Positions 7,034 through 62,636 of a DNA stretch of 64,000 bases are shown one piece after another. A program made the position numbers and the translations under genes. Origin of the DNA: Antilocapra americana (lineage: Eukaryota; Chordata; Mammalia; Artiodactyla; Antilocapridae); NCBI GenBank assembly GCA_007570785.1, contig ML662442.1:63141392-63205391 (forward strand). Direction: 5' to 3'. The notes beneath the pieces were generated by a model. That model was not told the origin of the DNA. It did not search any database and saw nothing but the letters and a program-made list of their open reading frames with translations. Positions within the stretch are counted from its first letter, which is position 1, and the number at the start of each line of letters is the position of its first letter.

Positions 7034-7433
7034 NNNNNNNNNNNNNNNNNNNNNNNNNNNNNNNNNNNNNNNNNNNNNNNNNNNNNNNNNNNNNNNNNNN
7101 NNNNNNNNNNNNNNNNNNNNNNNNNNNNNNNNNNNNNNNNNNNNNNNNNNNNNNNNNNNNNNNNNNNNNNNNNNNNNNNNNNNNNNNNNNNNNNNNNNNN
7201 NNNNNNNNNNNNNNNNNNNNNNNNNNNNNNNNNNNNNNNNNNNNNNNNNNNNNNNNNNNNNNNNNNNNNNNNNNNNNNNNNNNNNNNNNNNNNNNNNNNN
7301 NNNNNNNNNNNNNNNNNNNNNNNNNNNNNNNNNNNNNNNNNNNNNNNNNNNNNNNNNNNNNNNNNNNNNNNNNNNNNNNNNNNNNNNNNNNNNNNNNNNN
7401 NNNNNNNNNNNNNNNNNNNNNNNNNNNNNNNNN
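7034..7433. other. Assembly gap (400 N)
   Basis: Exactly 400 unresolved bases between a poly-G run and very GC-rich DNA. Any first exon or core promoter inside it is invisible. ORFs crossing the gap are artefacts. Confidence 0.99.
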
Positions 7434-33700: not shown

Positions 33701-36700
33701 TCTGCGGGAATATTAACTTTTTAAAAGTGAGCCTAAAACTCCCAGGTGTCACAGGTCTGAATTTTGATTTGAAGATTCCATTCAGCTGTGCTCTCTTTCT
33801 CAGTGTTTGAAATGCCAGGGTGTAGTGAACCACAGAAGACTTTCTCTGCAATGTAAATGTTTTGTACTGTTTCCCAGATTTTGTATTAATAGTTCAAAAA
33901 AGCTTAAATTAACATCAGCATGTAATAAAAGTAAACTTACTTACCTGAGCGAATGCCAGTTTTTAAAAAATTCCATTCAGAATTGATTTTCTATCATCAT
34001 TTTTAACGTCATTAATTAATAATCATGATAGCTTGACTTTTCTACTCTTGCCCAGTAGATGGTACTATCAGCTTTATTTTCAGATATTTTGGATTCAGAG
34101 TTGACCATTTAAAACTTTATTTTTTCCCAACAAGTGAAGTTATTTTTAGCTCTTTCCTTCCCAGTTGACTTTTTACCACCTCTTAAACTGACATTTTTAG
34201 GTGAATCCACAGGTTTAGTATATGCATGCTACCTGGGAACTTGTATCTGGAACATATAATAGGAAGAAAACATTTTCACTTTCCATAACTTGTTCTGTCT
34301 AGAAAGCTTTTGGTAATTGTGGAACATGTGCAGAAAATTGTTTAAGGTTATTATTTTCACCTGGTGGAAAGAATAATTAGTTGTAAATTTGGCTGAAGAT
34401 TTTTCTGACTTGTAGCCTGAATCTCGTTTGGTAAAATTAATCATTCTGTTGGCATGTTTACCAAACAGATTTTTAGATTGGAAAATACAAGGCCTCATTT
34501 TAAATACTGCATATTTGCATGTTCATATATATTTCTGAGAGCAGTCAAAAAACTTGAAGCCAATGTTGTATGATCCTTTTGAATTTTGAGCTTTCTAGCT
34601 CTTTGTCCCCTGGTAAAATTAGTGAATGTCTTATGTCATTCTGTTTTATGGAATGGAAGGAATACAGAAGGAAAACAGAAGGAATACAGAATAGCTTTGA
34701 CTCTCATGAATGTGAGAGTCAACCTAGCTGTTTCAAAGAGGATGGGCTCCTGCACACAGGTAGTGGTTAAAAACCTTCAACACATGATGCCCAGTATGAT
34801 TCAACATAGTATGCCCAGGAGATTGCAGAAGAGTATTTGGTTTGAGGCTTACCGTGAGATGAGGTGAGAGGAAGTTTTCAGTATTTGGGGTCCAGAATGC
34901 CCATGAAATCAAAATGCCCTTACTTTTTAGTGGTAAACTTGGCCTGAGGCTAGTAGACTTGTTCAGATCTCTCAGATATTACCAGTTGTTTGGGAGGACT
35001 GGAAGTAAATGACTATAATGGAGAATTCTAAAGAGCAGTCAGTGAAAGAAAGAGGAAATATAGAGCCTGGGGGGGTGGGGGGAGTCCTATGACTCATGCT
35101 TCAGCCTTCCTTCTAAACATCTTGGAATATGGGGATTGGATGTATAAGTCAGAATTTCTAGAATGGTAATTTTCCCTGCTCTTTGAACTAGGTGAACTTG
35201 GATGAGACAAGTTGATTCTGGGAAAACAGTGATTCTGCTTTTACTAACTTTAATCATTAAATAAACAGTAATATGAAATATGAAAAAAAAGCCTTAGCAA
35301 AAAAAAAATAGTATTTGAAATTACGAGCCATATAAGTGAGCTGGCAACTCCACGGGACAGTGCAAAGATGGTAGTTTGTGTCCTTAAGAAGTGCTTTGCC
35401 GCGTTCTTCTGTTCCCTCTTCCCGAAATTCCAAAGTTGTTAAATGCAAAGGTCTTCATAGTGGTAATGAGCTTATCTGGATATAATTGGGGCTTACCTGG
35501 ATATAATTGTTGAAATTAACTCTTAAAATATCGACTCTATGTGCCAGCCTTTAAATGGTGGCAGTTCTGAGCGCTTTTATAAATTTTCCCCCTTTCTTCT
35601 GTTGCTGCTAGTTCCGTGTAAATGAGTTTGGAGCCCTGGAAGTTATTACAGATGAGAGTGAGATGGAAAATGTTAAAAAAGCAACAGCAACTACAACTTG
35701 GATGGTACCAACTGCTCAAGAAGGTAAGACTGGGTCATCTGCATTGTCGTTTCTCTCTTTTTTTTTTGGAAAGTTTTTAATGTAAGACTGTCTAAGGTTT
35801 TATAATAGGCTGGAACTTTGAAAATCCTGGGTGAGCTTCATGTCACATATTCTTAGGTAAATTTCTATGATGAAACTGATATGGAACCAGCTTTAATATT
35901 TTTGAAATAACCGTAAAGTGTCTTCTTTCCTCAAGCCAGATCTGTCATAGCACAAGGTTAATTGAAAATTACCAAGTAAATTCATATTGTAATAGCCTAC
36001 CCAGGTGATTTAGCCAAAAGCCTGCCACTTTTTTCTCATCTGCTCCGATGGTTGTAACTAACACCTATATGCTGATGACTCCTAAATCTATATCTCCAGC
36101 CCCGACCTCTCCCCCGAGCTCCAGGCCCGTATTTCCACCTGCCTACTGGACATCTCCACCTGGATGTCCCACAGGTACCTCAAACTCCACATGTCTAAAA
36201 TGCAATTCATTTTCTATTTCTTTCTTCCCTCCCCCAACCTGCTTTTTCTTCTGTAGCCCGTAATATCAGTTGATGGTAGCAACATCCATCCAGTGGACAA
36301 GCAAGAAATCTAGGAGTCATCCTGAATTTGGTCTCTCCCAGCCCCATGGCCTGTTACTGAATCCTCTTGGTTTTTGTTTCCTAAATGTCTCAGATCTGGC
36401 CTTTTCTACCTATTATCACAGCTGCTGTCTTAATTTAGGCCCTTATCACTCTTACCTGAACCACTGCAGACATCTCTTAAAGAATCCCTCTGCTTCTGAT
36501 CACCCCCAATTCATCCAGCACACGAAGTCAGAGGAACTGATGTAGATTGCTTATCTGACACTTCAACTTGTTATTGTCTCCTTGGCAAAACATACCAAGA
36601 TCTGGGTGACCCACACCCACCTGCTTGCTCTTGTCTCTTTGCTCTCTGTTCTGTTCTTTGTACGCTGTGTTCTGGCAGGGCCAGCAGCACTGAATTACAT

Positions 36701-39700
36701 AGAATTCTCCCAGGACTGTGTGGTTTCATGCTTCCTTGCCTTTGCTCACACTGTTTCTCCTGGCCAGGATGCTGTTTCTTTCCTTGTCCCGTTGGTAAAT
36801 TCCTCTTTGGCCTTCAAAACCCTATTGAGGCTTTCTATCAGAAAATCTTTTCTCAAACTACCCACTGCCCCCTTGCCCACCCCCCCACCACCATCTTGGG
36901 CTGGATGAGTCACTTCTTCCTCTGCACTGCTTCTGGAACTTGTTCATGCTTCAATTATTGCATGCATCACATTTTATTATAAATATTGGTTTTCTTGCCT
37001 GTCTTCTCTTCTAGACTGTGAGCTCTCTTGGGCAAGGTCTATACTGTCATTATCAGTGTCTAGCATAAATGGGTGCCTAATAAGTGTTTGCCGAATGAAT
37101 GATTAGCCTAATGGTTCAGACGAAAGGAAATGTGGACTCCTAAACAATATGGATAATTATGATTCAGGAGATCTGCTGCATTAAAAGTAAAATAGAAAGA
37201 TGTTGATTCAGCCCATTAACTAAAAGAGTCACTCATCAAAAACATAACATAGATAACTCTTTTTAAATTTTGTCAAAAAGATAACAGCTGTAAAGGATTC
37301 TATGGATGGACAATTTCATTTTCTGAATTTGGTGACTAATGAAATTTTCTTCATTTTACTTTGAATTCTGTAGAAAAGGCATTAGACAAGCTTTTGCTTA
37401 TCTTTTCTACAGATATTTTTGTTATGTAGATGATTTGAGTGATCCCTGTCAAGCCCATCCTCTCCCTCCCAAAGGAATGATCAGTGTTCATTCATTCATT
37501 CAGCAAACATTATCCTTTTTATTGTGTTGCTAACAAAATTATTAGAAGAAAAAGTTTAAATGTATTTTGCCACAATTTCTGTCATGGTTTTAAGTTTTGT
37601 TTTTTTTTTCTTCTTTTCGTCTTCTAGTCTTTTCTGAGAAGACTGGAATGCCTTTCAGGTTGAAGGATCCAGTGAAAGTAGAAGGGCTTCAATTCTGTGA
37701 GAACTGCTGTCAGTATGGCAATGTAGATGAGTGTCTTTCTGGAGGAAACTACTGCAGCCAGAACTGTGCTCGACATATCAAAGACAAGTAGGTTTTTGCC
37801 CACATTCCATTTATAAAATGAGTTTTAGAGTCAAAGGGCCTGGTGCTTGGGAATAGAGCAGTTAAGTGTTTTCTGACGTCTGTCATCCAAATGCCTTCCC
37901 CCCCACTCCACCCCACCCCCCGAGACTTTCCCTTTGGAGGCCCTTGGACCCTAATCCCACTTCTGGACCAGGTGGCTTCAGTCAGTATAGGTATACTGCT
38001 CATGTCCTACCTGCAATACAATCTTGGCCTCTTTCTTTAGTCTTTTATTTATATTTATTTATTCCCCAGCCAAGAATATTTAGATCTCTTTGGGCTACAT
38101 ACACATTTTACTGATACTGATGCTTATGAAAATGTACTTGGATTTAAATTTTGGGAGTTCTTAGGTAATTCAGCCAAAACTCCATAGATGAAATACCGTT
38201 TCCCTTGACTGAACATCCACTGAATGGCCATAGTGAGGGGTGTTGTAATTGTGTCTCTGTGGTTCTCGGGACAGACTGAGAATTCTGAGACAGGGCCATC
38301 AGCTGTGACTGATGGTGGTGTGATTGCTTTGGGGGACTGTGATGAGGTCAACTTCTCACTAACAAGGTGGATTTGCTGCATATACTTGTGTACTGCAAAT
38401 AAATGACTTGGTAAATACCAAGTTCTAGTGGAGTTTCTCATGTATTTTAATCAGAACAGGCTGGAGAATTGTCTGTTTTTGTTGGCCATCTGGTATTTTA
38501 CCAAATTACATTTGGCCTTTTTTGATTGAACTTGGCATTCTCAATAATTGCTAGATTGTTGCTTTAAAGTTCCCACCAAAAACTAGGATGGCTACAAATA
38601 ATCGATTCTTTTATTAGTATGGATGGTAGCTGTGAAAAACCAACAATTTTAAACTTGTTAGAACCTATTTCACCTGTAGGGCTGGTGCCCTTTTAAAATT
38701 TTATCATTAATTACATAATTATAATCAATAATTATATAAATTAATATATAAGCTAATTTCCACTTTTTATCTTGACATTGTCATTCATGATTTTGGTCTG
38801 AAGTGTCTCTTATCTATGATATTCTAATACATACACATTTCTCCTTCTGGTTAAATATTTTTAAAAGGTTTTGCATTGCTAATCAACATGCAGATATTTG
38901 ATGGGTATTGTTTCCTGTCACTCTTTTGGGTTTATAAATTCAGCAGAGATCAGAAGGAAGAAAGGGACATGGGAGAAGACAACGAGGAAGAAGATTCTAA
39001 GTGTAGTAGGAAGAAAAAGCCAAAGTTATCTCTGAAAGCTGACTCCAAGGAGGAAGAAGAGCGAGATGATGAGATGGTTAGTACCCACAGGGCTGCTCCT
39101 TCTGCAGGTAGCACCAGGATTTCAGTGCTGGTTCTGTGACCTTGTTTTACCATCAGCAGAGTGCCCACCCACCCTCTGTGTGTCACTGTCCTCATCTCAA
39201 GATGAGGATAATAAATAATAGTATAGTACCCCTCCCTCAGGGTGAAGAAGTAGAAAGTCCTGAAATTTATTGCTGGAGTGAGAGAGGCAATGGCAGAACC
39301 TTCAATTCTGCAAATTAATTTTAAATTCTTCTTGACAGCAAAATGCCAATCTCATTTTGGTAAATTGCAGACAGATCTTATAAAACTATGCAAGTAGGTA
39401 GAAAATGGCAGATAAATGTCAGATATATTCAGGGAAAGCTAATTAAGAATATGCTAATTAAAACATAAACATCTCATCTCTAAAGTATTGGTAACTCTAT
39501 ATGAAAAGACAACTTTGAAGTTGTCAAAGCATTTTCCTTAAGATCAATATTGAGTAGTGATTACTGATTAGTCACTGTGTTAGGAGCTGGGAATGCAGGG
39601 ATGAATAGGATAGCAGAAGGACAGGATCTTTTTTCTCAGGGACATCTGTGTAAACCACTGGGGGAAATATCAGCCTGTGAGAAGTGCTATGAGGAAAAGT

Positions 39701-57700: not shown

Positions 57701-60700
57701 TGCCTATCCCAGTGTCTGGCACGTGATAGACACTCAGCCTTTCAATGAATGGGTGAGTGAATGAATGAATGAAGCATGTTGCATGTTGAGATGAGGAATG
57801 TATGGACCAGGTTTGATGCAGAGCAAGGAATCAGATGTGCATACTGGTAAGGAGGCCTTGGCAAAGCATATACTTGACTGAAGTAAAGATGACAAAGAGA
57901 AGAGGGGAGGAAAAGAAACACCCCATCTTAATACCTGGTCTCTGCCATTCTAATGGGCAATAGAGAGAGCGTGTTTGCTTTTTTAGGGTGATTGGGCTTC
58001 CTGCTTTTGTATATTTGTCCTTAGAAATACTGAAATAATTTTAGTTTGCCTGCATATAGGCTTTTTATATACATGTTTATTTTTCCAAATGATTTTCCTA
58101 AATGGAAATTCCAAATTTTAATGAAATTAAATTTGCTATTTTTGTAGTTGTGGAATATAACACCACTTGTATGGAAACACAAACTATTTGCCTGGTGTCA
58201 GTTTTGTATGTTATATGTCTGATAGAAATCTCCTTGGTACTAATATGCTGGAAGAGTGAAAAATTCTTTGGTTTAGCCACTTTTTCCCAAATAAGATAGA
58301 TTGTGAAAAGGTAGAACTCGGTGTAAAATGTTCTCAATCACTAACTTTTTTTTTTTTTACTTTTACTGGTATTTGAGAATTTTTCCTAATTACCATTTTT
58401 AAATTTATATAACTCACAGGTGTGAAGCCTCTAGTCCACACATCCATCCAGTCGGTTGGTGTAAAGAACATCGCAGAACCCTCATTACTCCCCCAGGTTT
58501 GTGTTGATTATGTGTCTGCTGTTTGTTATTTATGTCAATTTGAGTTTATTTTCATGTGCTAAAGAACAGATTCTGTGACTTCATCGTAAGACAATGAACT
58601 TTTGAGCATGTCACTAACGTGCCGTGGCTACTGCTGGTATGAGATGAGAGTGGTCAGCTCACACAGAGCATCACTGGGGTGTCTGCGGCTTCTTATGGAT
58701 ACCCCCGTGAGTAATGAAAACTGTCGTTGTCATAGGGAAAGAATGCCTCCTTGGTTTGTTAGGAGCTGTTGTGTGGGTGTTGCCCACAGCCTGTAAGCAA
58801 CAAAGACTCAGCTTGGCGCTTCAAATATTTGCCTCATTCTGTTCTGCCAGCTAGTGTCATTGTTAGCCTTGTCCCCAGTTCCTTGATACTGCTTCTCAAT
58901 TAGCGCCTGATCATTTACTCACTCGGGACCAGCTGTTCCTGTGATGGGCAATGCAAGTCCCTTCTGCCTCCTGCATTTTTATCCATGTCCAGGGATGAAA
59001 GCTCCTGCCCTTTACTGATTTACAGAGCGGTTTTGAAGCTGAAAGCCTATTGGCATAAACCATGTCGTGTCAAAGTAAGATATTAAATGGTTCGGTAGCT
59101 CAAACGTGCCGCTGCCTGGGAGAACCCACTCAGCCCTCCTAGGTTCTGGGTTTACACAGTATTAGGAGCCAGTGAATAGTGACCGCCACTGTCACCGTCT
59201 GAATCATACGACACAGATTCTTTGGGACTTCGCAATTTGATACTGATCTTTCCGTTTTTTCCCTTACCTTCCTTTTGGTCATCATTGGCAACCCACTCCA
59301 GTATTCTTGCCTGGAGAATTCCTTGGACAGAGGAGCCTGGTGGGCCACGGTCCATGGGGTCGCACAGAGTTGGACGAGACTGAAGCGACTTAGCATGCTT
59401 GCAGGGATCTGTTAACTCAACAGGACCAGTGAACAGCAGGTTCCTGGCTATGTCTTCACACCGTGGGGAGGGGTGGGTGAGGTATCATTACTGACTTCTG
59501 ATGTGAGGCAGATTACCAAGTCTCCTGCCTCTCTTCATGGACTTTTATAATTCAGTACCAGAGAAAGTATATAGCTTTTTGGCAAAATTTAAAAATACAA
59601 AGTTGCATGTGAAAAAGTACCAGCACACAGTAGTGTGAATATAATTGATGCCGCTAACTGTAACACATGAAGATGGTTAAACTCGTAAATTTTATGTGAT
59701 ACATATTTTATCACACCAATTTAAAAAGTTAAAAAAACAGAAGTAAAAACATGCCAAATAAAAAAACTGGTGTGCAAGGCCTGTGCTGATGTTACTTTGC
59801 TCTTTGGATCCATGGCAAACAAGAGGCCCTTTCTCTGGACCCTTTTCTCTAAGGGCAGATTCCTGGCTTGTGTCTCACATCTTCTCTGTGAAAAGAAAGG
59901 ATGTTAATCACCTGTCTCCCTAGGCAGTTGCTCTTCTGCTTCGTAGACCAGTCTCATGAGCAGCCCTGCCAGTTACTCCATATTCATGTTCTTTTTTAAC
60001 CTTTGTACACCTACTGTTCTTTTTCCAAAATTAAAGTCATGGTGATATCATGACAGTGTATGGCAAAAACAATTAAAAAAATAAAAATAAATAAAAAAGT
60101 AAAAAATAAATGATTTTCATTTTTGAATTACCAAATTATCTATTTAGATGTGCTTATTTTTAAGGGTTTAGAGTGAAATTAGAGATAACCACCGTTCTCT
60201 CTCTTAATGGTTTAATAGGTGGTTATTATATCTTTGCAGAGAACCCTTTTTTGCCTCTGTATTCACATACATGCAGGGCTTCCCAGGTGGCGCAGTGGTA
60301 AAGAACCCACCTGCCAGTGCAGGAGATGCAAGAGACGCAGGTTCGATCCCTGGGTCAGAAAGATCCCCTGGAGGAGGAAATGGCAGTCCACTCCAGTATT
60401 CTTGCCTGGGACAAAGGAGCCTGGTGGGTTAGAGTCCCATGGGGTTGCAAAGAGTTGCACGTGACTGAGGGACTGAGTGCACACATATATGCATGCACGC
60501 ACTGTCAGCTTCAGTGTTATTTAAATTCGGCAAGGTATATACCTTATAAATGCACTGTAAAATGGTGACTACTTGGAAATGTTTGCATACTTACTTTTTC
60601 AAACTTTTATTTTGAAACATTTTCAAATGTACAGAAAAGTTGGAAGAACAGTAAATAGCTCATTTATATAACCTTGAACCAGAGACCCACCCAAGTTTAT

Positions 60701-62636
60701 CAGTTGTATCAAGGATGTCATTTATAGCAAAACGGTGGCACATTACTCAGTTTTCATATTTATCTGGTCTCCTTCAATATGCTGTCCTTGACTTTTATAG
60801 CTTGCATATGTTTAAGAATTATAAATTGGTCATTTTGTAGAATATTACTTAATTTGAACATGATGGGTACTTTCTGGTAATTAGACCCACAGTGTGCATT
60901 TTTGGCAGGAATATCACAAACAGTGCTGTGTTCTCATTGGATCCTCTCCTGGCCACTTGATGTTCATTTATCTCATTATTGGTTGATTTTTACCAGTGAT
61001 TGATCAAGATGGTAGTTACGGGCTTATTCATGGGTGTAGGGGTTTCATTGTCTGTAATTATTAAATATTTTAAGAAGACACTTCGTATAAATATCCTGGA
61101 CTTCAGTCCCATGTCACTTACTAGTCTTAGCATCTGTTGATATTTCTAGTGTAAATTAACATTCTGATAGTTGCTAAACGATAACTTTTCTTATTCAGTC
61201 ATTCGTTGTACTTGACATTTTTCCGCAAGAATAGCTTTTTCATCTTCCTATTTATGCATTCAATTAATTTATTTGTATCAACATGAACTCATATGTTACT
61301 ATTATCAGTGGCTTATATTCCATTACTTACGTTATTTATTTTCATGTTCAGATTTTCTCACATTTGACCAGTGGGAGACCCTTTAAGCTGGTTTCCATGC
61401 CCTTTTGACATGTTTTTATTATTTTTTGGAGAAATTTCCTATTTTCTGGCACAGCTGGGCTTATCTTTTGCCTTCCTTGACCCAACGTTGACGTCACCCA
61501 TTTCTCCCAGACTCTGGTTTATTTTTGTAGAGAACGATTTGTAGACACTAAGATCTGGGCACTAGATGAGCTCACTGCTACTGAACTAATGCTGCTGCTG
61601 ACCTTTCAGGGGACATATGATTAAGTAAATACAAAAATTTGTTTATTTCTATATCCATTTGTAGATATTGAAAACCACGAATGTATACCATTAGCTCCAG
61701 TTCATACCTAACAGCACCAGATTCATTCTAGTTTTTCACTTTTCATGTTTACAGTCAGTGAGAAATCTGGCTTCTATTTTCTCCAGTTCCATTTACTTAC
61801 TTTTTCAGTAAGGACGGACTACATAAAGTAGCCATAAGGAGAACTACATAAAGTAGCCAGTTTCCTCTCCTACTGGGCCAACACTAATTCCTACTCATGT
61901 CTACCTAAAGGCCTTTGGACTCCAGAGGAAACAGAAGGAGACTGAGAAGGAAGAAGGATACTTGTTTTTATATATTCTATTAATACTGTTCCATGATTTA
62001 TTTTGTTTGGCCTAATGATGTGATTGTCTGGAATATTTCACATATTGGTGTATATATTAGCCTGCCTCATTTTTTTTATAAATGCTTTCTGTTTTACATT
62101 TATGATATTTATGTGTGTATATATATATTTGCACATTTCTATATTGATGGTCATTTAACTGATTTTTACATTTTCATATTCACAAAAGGTGCATTTTCTT
62201 TGTACACACATATGAGATTCTTCCTAGATTAATAGAAGTAAAATTTCTAGATTAAAGGGTATTTATATTTATGTGTTTGTGGATATCTTGTGTTGTTAAA
62301 CTATCCTCACTTGAGAATGCAAATTATATATATTCTTATTTAAAAGTTAATAGAGAAGTCATGAGCTAGATGAAAACAACTTCATTATTACGTGTGTTTC
62401 CAAGTGTGTAAGTGTAAAGTTGTTTTGTGTAATATGGTCATGCTTTTCTTCATTACAATGATAACGATATCTCAGAATTTTATAGGCCTGCTTATGGTTG
62501 TCACTATCATTTTCGTTAAACCTGATAGGATTTACTGTTTTCATTCTTAGGTTATCCAAATGTGAAACATTTTTCTTGGGATAAATACTTAGAAGAAACC
62601 AATTCTTTACCTGCTCCTGCAAGAGCTTTCAAAGTG
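27637..62636 (+). CDS. L3MBTL3: L3MBTL3, 5' part (13 coding exons; 3' end outside window)
   Basis: Nuclear, chromatin-associated MBT-repeat protein that reads mono- and dimethyl-lysine. It is reported to bind RBPJ and recruit the demethylase KDM1A to repress Notch targets (family knowledge). Joined coding segments: 27637-27738, 35612-35723, 36100-36174 (alternative), 37628-37787, 38947-39076, 40856-40940, 42545-42636, 44707-44811, 46066-46201, 47992-48083, 50545-50696, 58420-58496, 62551-62636. They total 1404 nt, 468 codons, with no stop and every junction in frame at GT/AG sites. Protein order: RBPJ-binding N-terminus (about 1-71), optional insert 72-96, FCS-like zinc finger about 120-143, charged linker with basic clusters 171-180 and 203-213, MBT1 from about 231 to 332, MBT2 about 340-439, start of MBT3. 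The remembered human ligand-pocket residues D274 and D381 fall at 273 and 380 here, an offset of one that supports both the exon chain and the identification. The remaining MBT3, CCHHC zinc finger and SAM domain lie beyond 64,000. Confidence 0.96.
27845..28072 (-). repeat. Bov-tA SINE, antisense
   Basis: Complement of the Bov-A body (TGCGACCCTATGGACCCTAG, then GGATTTTCCCAGCAAGATTACTGG) followed by the complement of the tRNA head (TGCATTGCAGGCAAATTCTT). It starts about 110 bases after the donor of the first coding exon. Confidence 0.88.
28073..30215 (+). other. Intron 2 with two MIR remnants
   Basis: MIR-like pieces at about 29045-29155 (GACCTTGAACAAGTCAGTTA) and 29250-29385 (ATCTGTAAAATGGGGATATAGG). 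Otherwise unassigned, with no exon. Confidence 0.5.
30220..30480 (+). repeat. L2 LINE fragment
   Basis: ATCACTCTTCTGCTTAAAATCC, then TTTTTGGTGGTCTGACCATT and CTCTCCAGCTGCATCTCGTT follow the order of the L2 ORF2 3' part. Confidence 0.6.
30578..30796 (-). repeat. Bov-tA SINE, antisense
   Basis: TGTCCGACTCTTTGCAACCC, TTCCAGGCAAGAATACTAGAG, then the complement of the tRNA head ending CCCCTGAGCCATCAGGGA. A MIR remnant follows at about 30815-30950. Confidence 0.9.
30960..32245 (+). other. Intron 2, nothing recognised
   Basis: No repeat family, RNA gene or exon identified on either strand. Confidence 0.45.
32250..33330 (-). repeat. L1 LINE 3' end (ORF2 tail and 3' UTR), antisense
   Basis: A long, well-preserved stretch of mammalian L1 in reverse: CATAGTATTCCATTGTGTGTG, TTCATCTGTTGATGGACACTTAGG, CATATCTTGGCAGTTGTAAA, ATTTCCCTGATGATTAGCATG and GCAGATATTTTCTCCCATTC. 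About 1.1 kb, an L1M/L1P-age copy. Degenerate, no ORF. Confidence 0.85.
33331..35611 (+). other. Distal intron 2, nothing recognised
   Basis: Unassigned sequence. A short direct repeat (GGAATACAGAA twice near 34660-34690) is visible. ORFs at 34570-34867 overlap in two frames and show no domain. Confidence 0.45.
35612..35723 (+). CDS. L3MBTL3: L3MBTL3 coding exon 2 (RBPJ-binding segment)
   Basis: Acceptor TGCTGCTAG, donor GAAG|GTAAGA; 112 nt, phase 0 in and phase 1 out. It encodes residues 35-71 plus the first base of the next codon. W64 in the stretch TTTWMVPT resembles the hydrophobic-W-hydrophobic-P motif by which RAM-like partners dock on the RBPJ beta-trefoil domain. That role is remembered from human L3MBTL3 studies and the motif match is my reading. 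The last G makes Ala with the optional exon (G+CC) or Val when it is skipped (G+TC), so both joins stay in frame. Confidence 0.95.
36030..37105 (+). mobile_element. L2 LINE, sense; donor of alternative exon 3
   Basis: Begins near the reverse-transcriptase YADD box (36068-36079, TATGCTGATGAC) and runs colinearly with L2 ORF2 to the 3' end, which shows GACTGTGAGCTCTCTTGGGC, a CATTATCAGTGTCTAGC region and the terminal GAATGAATGA near 37095. It is 5'-truncated and decayed: the RT frame is already broken by TAA at 36083-36085. It supplies both splice sites of exon 36100-36174. CR1/L2-clade elements amplified early in mammalian history. Confidence 0.8.
36100..36174 (+). CDS. L3MBTL3: L3MBTL3 alternative exon 3, exonised from an L2 LINE
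   Basis: 75 nt, phase 1 in and phase 1 out, so it can be included or skipped without changing frame. Acceptor ATATCTCCAG, donor ACAG|GTACCT. It adds 25 residues, [10 protein letters not shown] through PPGCPT, rich in Pro and Ser (residues 72-96). I recall the same insert in the 780-residue human isoform and its absence from a 755-residue isoform. The exon lies inside an L2 element: the YADD box of the reverse transcriptase is at 36068-36079, and the RT frame continues through the exon as an L2-like peptide ([11 protein letters not shown], then LDISTWM). The L3MBTL3 frame is +1 relative to RT. The insert falls between the RBPJ-binding segment and the zinc finger. No domain is recognised; it is probably disordered. 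Confidence 0.88.
37628..37787 (+). CDS. L3MBTL3: L3MBTL3 coding exon 4 (FCS-like zinc finger)
   Basis: Acceptor CGTCTTCTAG after a long T/C tract, donor GACAA|GTAGGT; 160 nt, phase 1 in and phase 2 out. It encodes residues 97-149 and part of 150. C120-x2-C123 and C139-x3-C143 (NYCSQNC) form an FCS-like zinc finger of the kind found near the N-terminus of Polycomb/MBT proteins; such fingers are associated with RNA binding or protein contacts. The extra cysteines C124 and C132 leave the exact ligands uncertain. Confidence 0.95.
37788..38940 (+). other. Intron between exons 4 and 5, nothing recognised
   Basis: A C-rich stretch (37890-37922) and AT-rich DNA; no repeat family or exon identified. 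Confidence 0.45.
38941..38946 (+). promoter_or_regulatory. Tandem NAGNAG splice acceptor (CAGCAG)
   Basis: CAGCAG directly before exon 5, behind the tract CTTTTGGGTTTATAAATT. Use of either AG keeps the frame: the distal AG gives Lys, the proximal AG gives Asn-Arg at residue 150. The human-like protein corresponds to the distal AG. Actual usage cannot be read from DNA. Confidence 0.6.
38947..39076 (+). CDS. L3MBTL3: L3MBTL3 coding exon 5 (acidic linker, NAGNAG acceptor)
   Basis: 130 nt, phase 2 in and phase 0 out. It encodes residues 150-193: an acidic run (EDNEEEDSK), a basic run [10 protein letters not shown] that looks like a nuclear localisation signal, then another acidic run. The acceptor is the tandem CAGCAG at 38941-38946. 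Using the second AG gives the KDKDQ junction expected from human; using the first would add three bases and change K to NR. The donor is ATG|GTTAGT, with T at +3, weaker than its neighbours. From memory the human segment is one residue longer (KEDGEER against KEEEER), which explains the one-residue numbering offset downstream. Confidence 0.93.
39550..40690 (-). repeat. L2 LINE relic, antisense
   Basis: The reverse complement aligns with the same L2 region as the sense copy at 36 kb. For example GAGATGCTTATTAGATGTCC (around 40357-40376) complements the segment equivalent to the alternative exon. It fills most of the intron between exons 5 and 6. The 94- and 74-residue ORFs here are antisense L2 and not genes. 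Confidence 0.6.
40856..40940 (+). CDS. L3MBTL3: L3MBTL3 coding exon 6 (basic linker)
   Basis: Acceptor CTTATTGTAG, donor CAGG|GTGAGT; 85 nt, phase 0 in and phase 1 out. It encodes residues 194-221 plus the first base of Gly222. The cluster RARRKRR (about 207-213) is a second nuclear-localisation candidate. The exon lies just downstream of a long antisense L2 relic that fills most of the preceding intron. Confidence 0.95.
40941..42544 (+). other. Intron between exons 6 and 7
   Basis: No repeat family confidently assigned. Two perfect adjacent hairpins at 42268-42311 are listed separately. ORFs at 41274-41881 have no domain. Confidence 0.45.
42268..42311. repeat. Two adjacent perfect hairpins
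   Basis: First: ATTTACTTTAA, loop GTCC, TTAAAGTAAAT (42268-42293). Second, directly next: GTACTTT, loop AAGT, AAAGTAC (42294-42311). Both share the ACTTTAAGT motif, which appears again just after. They lie about 230 bases before the exon that opens MBT1. Confidence 0.9.
42545..42636 (+). CDS. L3MBTL3: L3MBTL3 coding exon 7 (start of MBT1)
   Basis: Acceptor GCCTTTCAG, donor GAG|GTACAG; 92 nt, phase 1 in and phase 0 out. It encodes residues 222-252. W231-C-W-A-S-Y-L-E-E-E starts the extended arm of MBT repeat 1, and VPAKLFKE ends the exon. It opens the first of three MBT exon cassettes, each starting with a Gly codon split after its first base. The donor has C at +4, so it is moderate. Confidence 0.95.
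43145..43364. mobile_element. hAT-type MER DNA transposon
   Basis: The left end CAGGGATCAGCAAACTTTTT and the complement of the right end (CAAGGGTCAGTGAACTACGA) form a terminal inverted repeat. The inside reads TTATAGGCTTTATGGAGTATATGG and GCAGCCATAGGCAATGTATAA, typical of a common non-autonomous hAT-Charlie element. Confidence 0.7.
43650..44680 (-). repeat. Old L1 (L1M) relic, antisense, split by a Bov-A
   Basis: Reverse-strand L1M 3' features lie on both sides of the Bov-A insertion: TTTTTTTGTCTGAGTTTGGAG upstream; GATTATTTCCTAGGATTAAAATTGC, ACATTTGAATTTCCTTTTCTG and TTTTTAGGAGCTGTTTATGA downstream. It runs to within about 30 bases of exon 44707. Confidence 0.55.
44055..44172 (-). repeat. 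Bov-A SINE, antisense
   Basis: TCAGTCGTGTCCGACTCTTT, CATAGACTGTAGCCCGCCAGG and CCTTCTCC near 44168, a single Bov-A unit. TATGTGGA appears just before and just after it, a probable target duplication. Confidence 0.88.
44707..44811 (+). CDS. L3MBTL3: L3MBTL3 coding exon 8 (MBT1 core)
   Basis: Acceptor TTACATTCTAG, donor GAG|GTAAGC; 105 nt, phase 0 both ends. It encodes residues 253-287 with [15 protein letters not shown]273 corresponds to human D274, the acidic pocket residue of MBT1. The first codon is TAT (Tyr), where I recall His (CAT) in human. The sequence directly upstream is an old L1 relic, so part of the acceptor region may be transposon-derived. Confidence 0.95.
44880..45095 (+). repeat. 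MIR SINE
   Basis: TTTATGCCAGGCACAGGACT, TATAGATGAAGGAACTGAGG, CTCAGAGAGGTTGAGTGAGG and GGTCACACAGCTTCCAAG form a clear MIR core between exons 8 and 9. Confidence 0.85.
45096..46065 (+). other. Intron between exons 8 and 9, nothing further
   Basis: Unassigned DNA; overlapping ORFs on both strands near 45500-45970 show no domain. Confidence 0.45.
46066..46201 (+). CDS. L3MBTL3: L3MBTL3 coding exon 9 (MBT1 end, aromatic cage)
   Basis: Acceptor CCTATTACAG, donor AAAG|GTATTG; 136 nt, phase 0 in and phase 1 out. It encodes residues 288-332 plus one base of Gly333. [11 protein letters not shown] supplies the cage aromatics (F297, Y300, Y304 here), followed by the family signature [19 protein letters not shown]. 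It closes the first MBT cassette. Confidence 0.96.
46481..46503 (+). repeat. (AC)n microsatellite
   Basis: Eleven and a half AC units followed by AAAACACA. A potential polymorphic marker. Confidence 0.95.
46917..47108 (+). repeat. Bov-tA SINE
   Basis: GGGGCTTCCTTGGTGGCTTA head, TGGGTTTGATCTCTGGGT decayed B box, AATGGCAACCCACTCCAGTA and TTGGACACGACTGAGCAACC. Confidence 0.92.
47109..47991 (+). other. Intron between exons 9 and 10, remainder
   Basis: No repeat or exon recognised. Confidence 0.45.
47992..48083 (+). CDS. L3MBTL3: L3MBTL3 coding exon 10 (start of MBT2)
   Basis: Acceptor GTGGACCCTAG, donor ATA|GTAAGT; 92 nt, the same length and phases (1 in, 0 out) as the exon opening MBT1. It encodes residues 333-363: [18 protein letters not shown], then [11 protein letters not shown]. 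The equal exon length fits tandem duplication of an ancestral MBT cassette. Confidence 0.95.
48084..50544 (+). other. Intron between exons 10 and 11
   Basis: Contains a short TG repeat at 49144-49157 and otherwise unassigned DNA. No exon or named repeat was identified. Confidence 0.45.
50545..50696 (+). CDS. L3MBTL3: L3MBTL3 coding exon 11 (MBT2 core and cage)
   Basis: Acceptor TATTTCATAG, donor ATTG|GTGAGA; 152 nt, phase 0 in and phase 2 out. It encodes residues 364-413 and part of W414. D380, F404, W407 and Y411 match the methyl-lysine pocket of human MBT2 (remembered as D381, F405, W408, Y412), so the reader pocket is intact. A22 of this exon (NPAFIC) is Ser in the human sequence I recall. 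Confidence 0.96.
50697..53914 (+). other. Intron between exons 11 and 12, proximal part
   Basis: Mostly unassigned. A region at about 51780-52340 resembles old L1 3' UTR sequence, but I could not place it firmly. A 38-base alternating purine-pyrimidine tract lies at 53231-53268. Confidence 0.4.
53231..53268 (+). repeat. Alternating purine-pyrimidine tract ending in (CA)n
   Basis: TGCACATGTGCATGCACATG followed by nine CA units: 38 bases with strict pyrimidine-purine alternation, a sequence class able to adopt Z-DNA. Confidence 0.9.
54054..54287 (+). mobile_element. BovB (RTE) LINE 3' end, 5'-truncated
   Basis: Encodes in one frame the RTE reverse-transcriptase C-terminal signature [15 protein letters not shown], and ends with the (ACTGA)n-like tail CTGAACTGAACTGACTGA. 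AAAGAGATG at 54045-54053 and again at 54288-54296 is the target-site duplication. A MIR remnant precedes it (about 53915-54040). Confidence 0.93.
54300..56515 (+). other. Intron between exons 11 and 12, middle part outside BovB
   Basis: No gene or other named repeat recognised. An 83-residue ORF at 55743-55994 is AT-rich and domainless. Confidence 0.4.
55285..55535 (-). mobile_element. BovB (RTE) LINE 3' end, antisense
   Basis: On the minus strand it reads [16 protein letters not shown], then a frame disrupted by indels. It is more diverged than the sense copy 1 kb upstream and so probably older. Edges approximate. Confidence 0.85.
56520..57775 (+). repeat. L2 LINE relic, sense (paralogue of the exon donor)
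   Basis: Colinear with L2 ORF2: CCACCACAGCAGCTCTTGTCA, GCAGCAGCATTTGACCCAAT, the YADD-equivalent TTTGCCGATGACTCCTGAAT near 56779, TTTAAAACATAAATCAGATT and the terminal GAATGAATGAATGAAG. It covers more 5' sequence than the 36 kb copy. The equivalents of both splice sites of the alternative exon are degraded here. Confidence 0.75.
57776..58419 (+). other. Intron before exon 12, nothing recognised
   Basis: Unassigned AT-rich DNA with a T run at 58348-58359 upstream of the acceptor. Confidence 0.45.
58420..58496 (+). CDS. L3MBTL3: L3MBTL3 coding exon 12 (MBT2 end)
   Basis: Acceptor AACTCACAG, donor CCAG|GTTTGT; 77 nt, phase 2 in and phase 1 out. It encodes the rest of W414 to P439 plus one base of Gly440, including the signature [13 protein letters not shown] and ending TPPG. 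The preceding intron is 7.7 kb, the second longest between coding exons here. The donor has T at +3 and +4 and is weak by consensus. Confidence 0.95.
58497..59284 (+). other. Intron after exon 12, nothing recognised
   Basis: No repeat, RNA gene or exon identified. Confidence 0.45.
59285..59398 (+). repeat. Bov-A SINE
   Basis: GGCAACCCACTCCAGTATTC, CTTGGACAGAGGAGCCTGGT, CGGTCCATGGGGTCGCACAG: a single unit without a tRNA head. Confidence 0.9.
60276..60482 (+). repeat. Bov-tA SINE with intact B box
   Basis: GGGCTTCCCAGGTGGCGCAG head and a consensus Pol III B box GGTTCGATCCC at 60340-60350, then a Bov-A body (GGCAGTCCACTCCAGTATTC) and tail (GCACGTGACTGAGGGACTGA). The best-preserved Bov-tA head in the window, so possibly one of the youngest copies. 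Confidence 0.93.
60595..61790 (-). repeat. Old L1 (L1M/L1ME-like) 3' UTR, antisense
   Basis: ACAGAAAAGTTGGAAGAACAG, GTGCATTTTTGGCAGGAATATC, TGTAATTATTAAATATTTTAAG and GATCTGGGCACTAGATGAGC follow in order a long L1M 3' region that I recognise from memory. Subfamily uncertain. Confidence 0.55.
61791..62550 (+). other. Intron before exon 13, nothing firmly assigned
   Basis: A 17-base direct repeat ACTACATAAAGTAGCCA occurs at 61818-61834 and 61843-61859. AT-rich thereafter; an L1-like character is possible but unproven. Confidence 0.4.
62551..62636 (+). CDS. L3MBTL3: L3MBTL3 coding exon 13 (start of MBT3)
   Basis: Acceptor TTTTCATTCTTAG, donor GTG|GTAAGA; 86 nt, phase 1 in and phase 0 out. It encodes residues 440-468, [18 protein letters not shown] then [10 protein letters not shown], the N-terminal arm of MBT repeat 3. 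No later L3MBTL3 exon is recognisable between 62,637 and 64,000, so the gene continues past the window. Confidence 0.95.

Follow-up and report, generated by a model that had tools for sequence, protein, structure and literature searches.

A probably optional 25-residue segment of L3MBTL3 that appears to derive from an ancient retrotransposon read out of frame

The 25-residue piece that a 75-nt candidate exon would contribute to the protein L3MBTL3 is probably optional and appears to come from an ancient retrotransposon read out of its own frame. The exon lies in a 64,000-nucleotide stretch of the genome of Antilocapra americana (contig ML662442.1), referred to here as the window, and we regard its LINE origin together with its coding use as highly probable; that its inclusion is alternative is what we infer. 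In the proposed course of events, an old LINE of the L2/CR1 type would have come to lie in sense orientation in an L3MBTL3 intron, and part of its reverse-transcriptase (RT) gene would have turned into a cassette exon, with an acceptor AG commonly present already in the element and a donor that a GC-to-GT change probably provided. Read out of the RT frame, this exon would add proline-rich sequence between the RBPJ-binding segment at the N-terminus and the cysteine (FCS-like) motif. The features concerned are collected in Table 1.

Table 1. Coordinates of the candidate exon, its neighbours and the surrounding repeat in the window.
Feature	Position	Strand	Details and evidence
Upstream L3MBTL3 coding exon	35612..35723	+	37 residues + 1 base; tblastn with assumed human protein, AG/GT borders
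Repeat-derived stretch, L2/CR1-type LINE, sense orientation	36033..36549	+	Stepwise profiles from other copies
Possible branch site CTAAC	36058..36062	+	By eye, no prediction; aligned consensus differs (TTAAATACCATC)
YADD codons, RT frame	36068..36079	+	Sequence; RVT_1 alignment
AG acceptor	36098..36099	+	AG in 28/33 first-set and 6/12 second-set rows with letters there
Candidate cassette exon	36100..36174	+	75 nt, phase 1-1, 25 residues in host frame
PPAY codons (PPxY motif), host frame	36135..36146	+	Residues 84-87
GT donor	36175..36176	+	Family: GC 15, GT 7 of 40 rows; GC 10, GT 2 of 22 rows (second set)
Weak candidate for the 3' tail of this LINE	37048..37121	+	Profile from 4 copies, E 0.36
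Downstream L3MBTL3 coding exon	37628..37787	+	VFSEKTG..., FCENC...CSQNC cysteine motif; tblastn with assumed human protein, AG/GT borders

The coding exons of L3MBTL3 in the window were located by tblastn with an assumed human protein sequence. The gene runs on the forward strand, where joining 13 coding segments, bordered by AG and GT except that the first begins at the start codon, gives an open N-terminal part of 468 residues. An MBT stretch aligns without gaps, along all 174 of its 174 residues, to chain 3ut1 of human L3MBTL3, and this names the gene independently of the assumed sequence. Relative to the assumed human protein, the acidic linker (window 38947-39076) is short of one residue, with KEE-EE against KEDGEE, and the numbering shifts by one. 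A 400-base run of N occupies window positions 7034-7433. Outside the window, the minus-strand locus G000:C1281:1087005-1087265 carries an uninterrupted 93% match to the last 87 residues of the assumed human protein, which in the L3MBTL3 gene itself fall into three separate places; this locus is possibly a 5'-truncated L3MBTL3 retrocopy.

The candidate exon is directly preceded by AG and directly followed by GT, and it joins the coding exons on either side without a shift, so that the frame is kept whether it is included or skipped; in the protein with inclusion its product spans residues 72-96. The original prediction had placed YADD codons 20 bases ahead of a 75-nt AG/GT exon of phase 1-1 that fits its L3MBTL3 neighbours, and the sequence and its predicted splice joins confirm this arrangement. 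It had also held that the exon is used in a frame other than that of the RT, which the two translations bear out. The RT frame of the window copy contains one stop (TAA), immediately after YADDS, which the prediction had not mentioned. A Pfam search with the spliced sequence that starts at RVNEF and ends with the cysteine motif gave no match, a PDB search returned no chain for the N-terminus or for the insert (matches of E 0.42 or worse), and the cysteine motif reached a Polyhomeotic-like finger in the PDB at only E 0.78. A degenerate pattern for part of the insert had 0 matches in the prokaryote and virus contig sets, as expected there.

That the exon sits in a dispersed repeat is evident from the animal's own 2.44-Gb genome, in which positions 36050-36250 of the window have at least 39 non-self matches at 70-90% identity. 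All 39 matches, picked by their likeness to the window, form the first copy set. A profile seeded with the window and built from rows of the other copies only matches the window at E 3.8e-63. A single-sequence search of the flanking DNA against the 39 copies gave no match, and the repeat was instead followed outwards with stepwise profiles, which match, all in a single orientation, 36033-36215 (E 2.9e-52, 30 copies), 36133-36418 (E 5.3e-34, 26 copies), 36261-36496 (E 4.1e-15, 17 copies) and 36377-36549 (E 7.3e-8, 11 copies). Its left edge is placed at about 36033 because the first upstream model (30 copies) has no match before its column 101, so the repeat apparently begins there in the manner of a 5'-truncated LINE. 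The weak possible tail further downstream is one that we take to resemble the L2 tail. Window 56752-56799 matches this LINE stretch a second time, briefly and weakly (78% over 50 columns, E 0.002), and the loci L038 and L026 each hold two separate LINE-profile rows within about 1.5 kb, possibly from broken or duplicated copies.

The original prediction of an L2 RT gene as the source is supported, as far as a LINE of the CR1/L2 type, by this dispersed family and by a consensus containing YADD that matches the Pfam profile RVT_1 just under the curated cut-off (E 1.5e-6, 28.6 bits against 29.6, profile positions 149-192 of 205). The window's own RT frame matches RVT_1 at E 0.0017 and the second-set consensus with YADD at 20.8 bits, every one of these matches lying below the cut-off. 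The family piece after YADD gives RVT_1 only at E 0.13 when searched alone, beside a chance-level match to SPOC_AIPP2 (E 0.1), and the RT reading therefore rests on colinearity with YADD.

Both splice sites (36098-36099 and 36175-36176) are inside the repeat. The family consensus has GC at the donor position, where the window has GT, and since GC is commoner than GT in the family, the donor probably arose by a C-to-T change. The donor, GTACCT, has no G at +5; this base is present in 10 of the 13 L3MBTL3 donors and absent from 2 of the 12 others, and its absence here would fit an alternative exon.

Family copies were also used to ask how often such a segment looks like an exon by chance. Forty rows span it, 29 from 28 loci of the window-similar set and 11 from 11 loci of a second set that was drawn blind to the exon. 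The host frame is open in 19 of the 40 and is both open and of a length divisible by three in 11. All four splice bases have letters in 34 rows, two of which carry both AG and GT, and the full combination of open frame, divisible length, AG and GT is found in 0/40.

For the human protein, the assumed sequence comes to 780 residues when the insert is present and to 755 when it is absent, with insert letters presumably identical to those of the window (25/25). Its residues 468-780, the last 313, have eight colinear matches beyond the window on the same contig and strand, which cover query positions 3-313 at 72-98% identity and so account for the remaining human length. Full-length human L3MBTL3 is described as having 780 residues in PMC5915600. 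This published length equals the assumed inclusion form and not the form of 755 residues, which makes it very probable that the insert belongs to the human reference protein. The presence of the insert in the human full-length protein, and an insertion older than the split of humans and ruminants, were both part of the original prediction and are thereby supported indirectly, by the published length together with the assumed sequence. Human numbering by the published D381 was discarded as support for inclusion, both forms having Asp at 380 here.

Divergence from the family was compared between the exon and its flanks. In the first set, mismatches number 11/75 in the window exon, 5/45 in the flank before it and 36/130 in the flank after it, but the exon's lower divergence is not significant with family column rates (binomial p 0.34-0.35); the window ranks 4 of 37 by the exon/flank ratio, and copy L032 has a lower exon rate than the window, 10/70. 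Constraint based on this set was dropped, as the result was not significant and the set had been picked by similarity to the window. For the latter reason the second, exon-blind set was collected by searching with a consensus from downstream of the exon, which had 40 matches, 30 of them fetched, giving 31 rows, 20 with at least 50 exon columns. In this set the window exon has 13/75 mismatches, and the 20 rows all diverge more, at 20-47% (406/1370 when pooled; p 0.009-0.011 one-sided and 0.022 two-sided); without the doubtful row L087, which has 1 downstream column only, the pooled rate is 378/1302 and p is 0.014. Against the window's own downstream flank (35/108) the exon differs with a Fisher p of 0.026; a fair comparison of that flank with those of the copies is not available, the latter having been selected. 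Drawn from one genome and small counts, the exon-blind comparison would favour selection on the exon. The exon has 3 CpGs, where counts of 0 or 1 occur in 33 of the 35 rows of the first set and in all 16 of the second. The CpG count was nevertheless set aside as support for constraint: it points in the same direction but weakly, for among the sites marked as ancestral CpGs by the rule applied, the window has kept 1 of 3 in the exon and none of 4 in its flanks, and a gain is the likelier source of one of the 3 exon CpGs.

Several other readings have to be weighed against a coding exon of L2 origin. The segment might be no exon at all, its frame and sites coinciding by chance in an intronic repeat. 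The case is made at the level of sequence with an assumed human protein, and the donor is not strong, which leaves this reading some room; the combination seen in 0/40 family rows and a published human length that agrees with inclusion make it highly improbable, and a chance exon in the repeat was rejected on these grounds. Less remote, though still rather unlikely in our view, is that a repeat-derived exon is spliced at a low level as tolerated noise that lengthens the linker without consequence. The donor without G at +5 and the non-significant first-set test fit such a neutral exon, as does the low average inclusion of exons from transposed elements reported in PMC2394776 (19% in human, 27% in mouse), but the exon divergence is the lowest among the window and the 20 exon-blind rows, and the human full length of 780 fits inclusion. 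As to the repeat itself, its name is drawn from RT and tail features by which we take the family to be L2; it might instead be a CR1-clade LINE other than L2. Against this stand the motif HLKLN.SKTELLIF after the catalytic box, present in the second-set consensus, and the many diverged copies, both of which we assume to be L2 features, so that L2 is most likely and another CR1-clade LINE very unlikely.

What the insert does has to be considered from its position, 8 residues after W64. The segment around this residue presumably binds RBPJ by means of a W-containing motif similar to the one in the RAM region of Notch. L3MBTL3 brings methylated proteins to CRL4-DCAF5; it also binds the RBPJ-LSD1 complex, and N-terminally truncated forms that do not contain the RBPJ-interacting region are described (PMC10889763 and PMC9262392, respectively). 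The peptide is 36% proline and has two TSPP sites and one PPAY, a PPxY motif absent from the original prediction. Most likely, judging from position and composition, the exon would supply a flexible segment open to modification, a spacer or a docking site, and in this way change the environment of the RBPJ-binding motif; an effect of the insert on RBPJ/Notch output is possible but doubtful. Alternatively, the insert might work mainly through PPAY, by which a protein with a WW domain, for instance a NEDD4-family ligase or a YAP-type factor, would dock to the RBPJ-L3MBTL3 complex. Both family consensuses read PTAY at this place and PP.Y occurs in 0/18 exon-blind rows, which speaks for this docking; on the other hand, PP.Y also occurs in 3/30 window-similar rows, a PPxY may arise by chance in a peptide so rich in proline, and a literature search showed, among the papers listed, no link between L3MBTL3 and WW domains. 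Nor would PPAY be alone, a PPxY-like PPGY being already present at residue 438 of the window's protein part, where it spans an exon junction (window 58420-58496 / 62551-62636). Docking of a WW protein as the main role is unlikely. A bolder version, still less probable, is that an L2 RT fragment gave a Notch corepressor an optional WW-docking module, made up of PPAY and two SP sites and placed right after its RBPJ-binding motif. Including this one exon would then switch, in mammals, the ubiquitin ligase or Hippo-type factor that is brought together with the RBPJ-L3MBTL3-LSD1 complex. If the usual full-length L3MBTL3 carries a retrotransposon segment beside its RBPJ-binding motif, constructs with and without the insert are not interchangeable, and a simple comparison of isoforms could test whether exonized repeats tune Notch repression.

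Among the papers listed in the literature searches, none describes a repeat origin for the L3MBTL3 exon, and the name L3MBTL3 has 0 occurrences in the main text of PMC2394776 or PMC2879366; the origin may well be catalogued already in repeat-exon databases. A choice of N-terminal isoforms bearing on RBPJ is known from the short L3MBTL3 transcript that starts in intron 7 and has no RBPJ region, but that transcript arises from an internal start site and not from the candidate exon (PMC9262392). The human and mouse exons described in PMC2394776 and PMC2879366 resemble the present one in that an intronic transposed element becomes an exon; among them, the MIR-derived exon 2 of DMWD is alternative in both species, and exons of this kind are more often found near the start of the coding sequence. 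Most of them are non-symmetrical (PMC2879366), whereas the L3MBTL3 exon keeps the frame. Another close case is IL18R1-Short (PMC13232192, a 2026 preprint), in which an ancient intronic L2 likewise alters an isoform of a mammalian protein, with residues of L2 origin added to it. That L2 contributes a polyadenylation signal and the receptor ends up truncated, while the element in L3MBTL3 provides an exon that is internal and leaves the frame intact. The exonization of repeats, including L2, is already well known, and the L3MBTL3 exon is a well-supported further example of it and not a new phenomenon.
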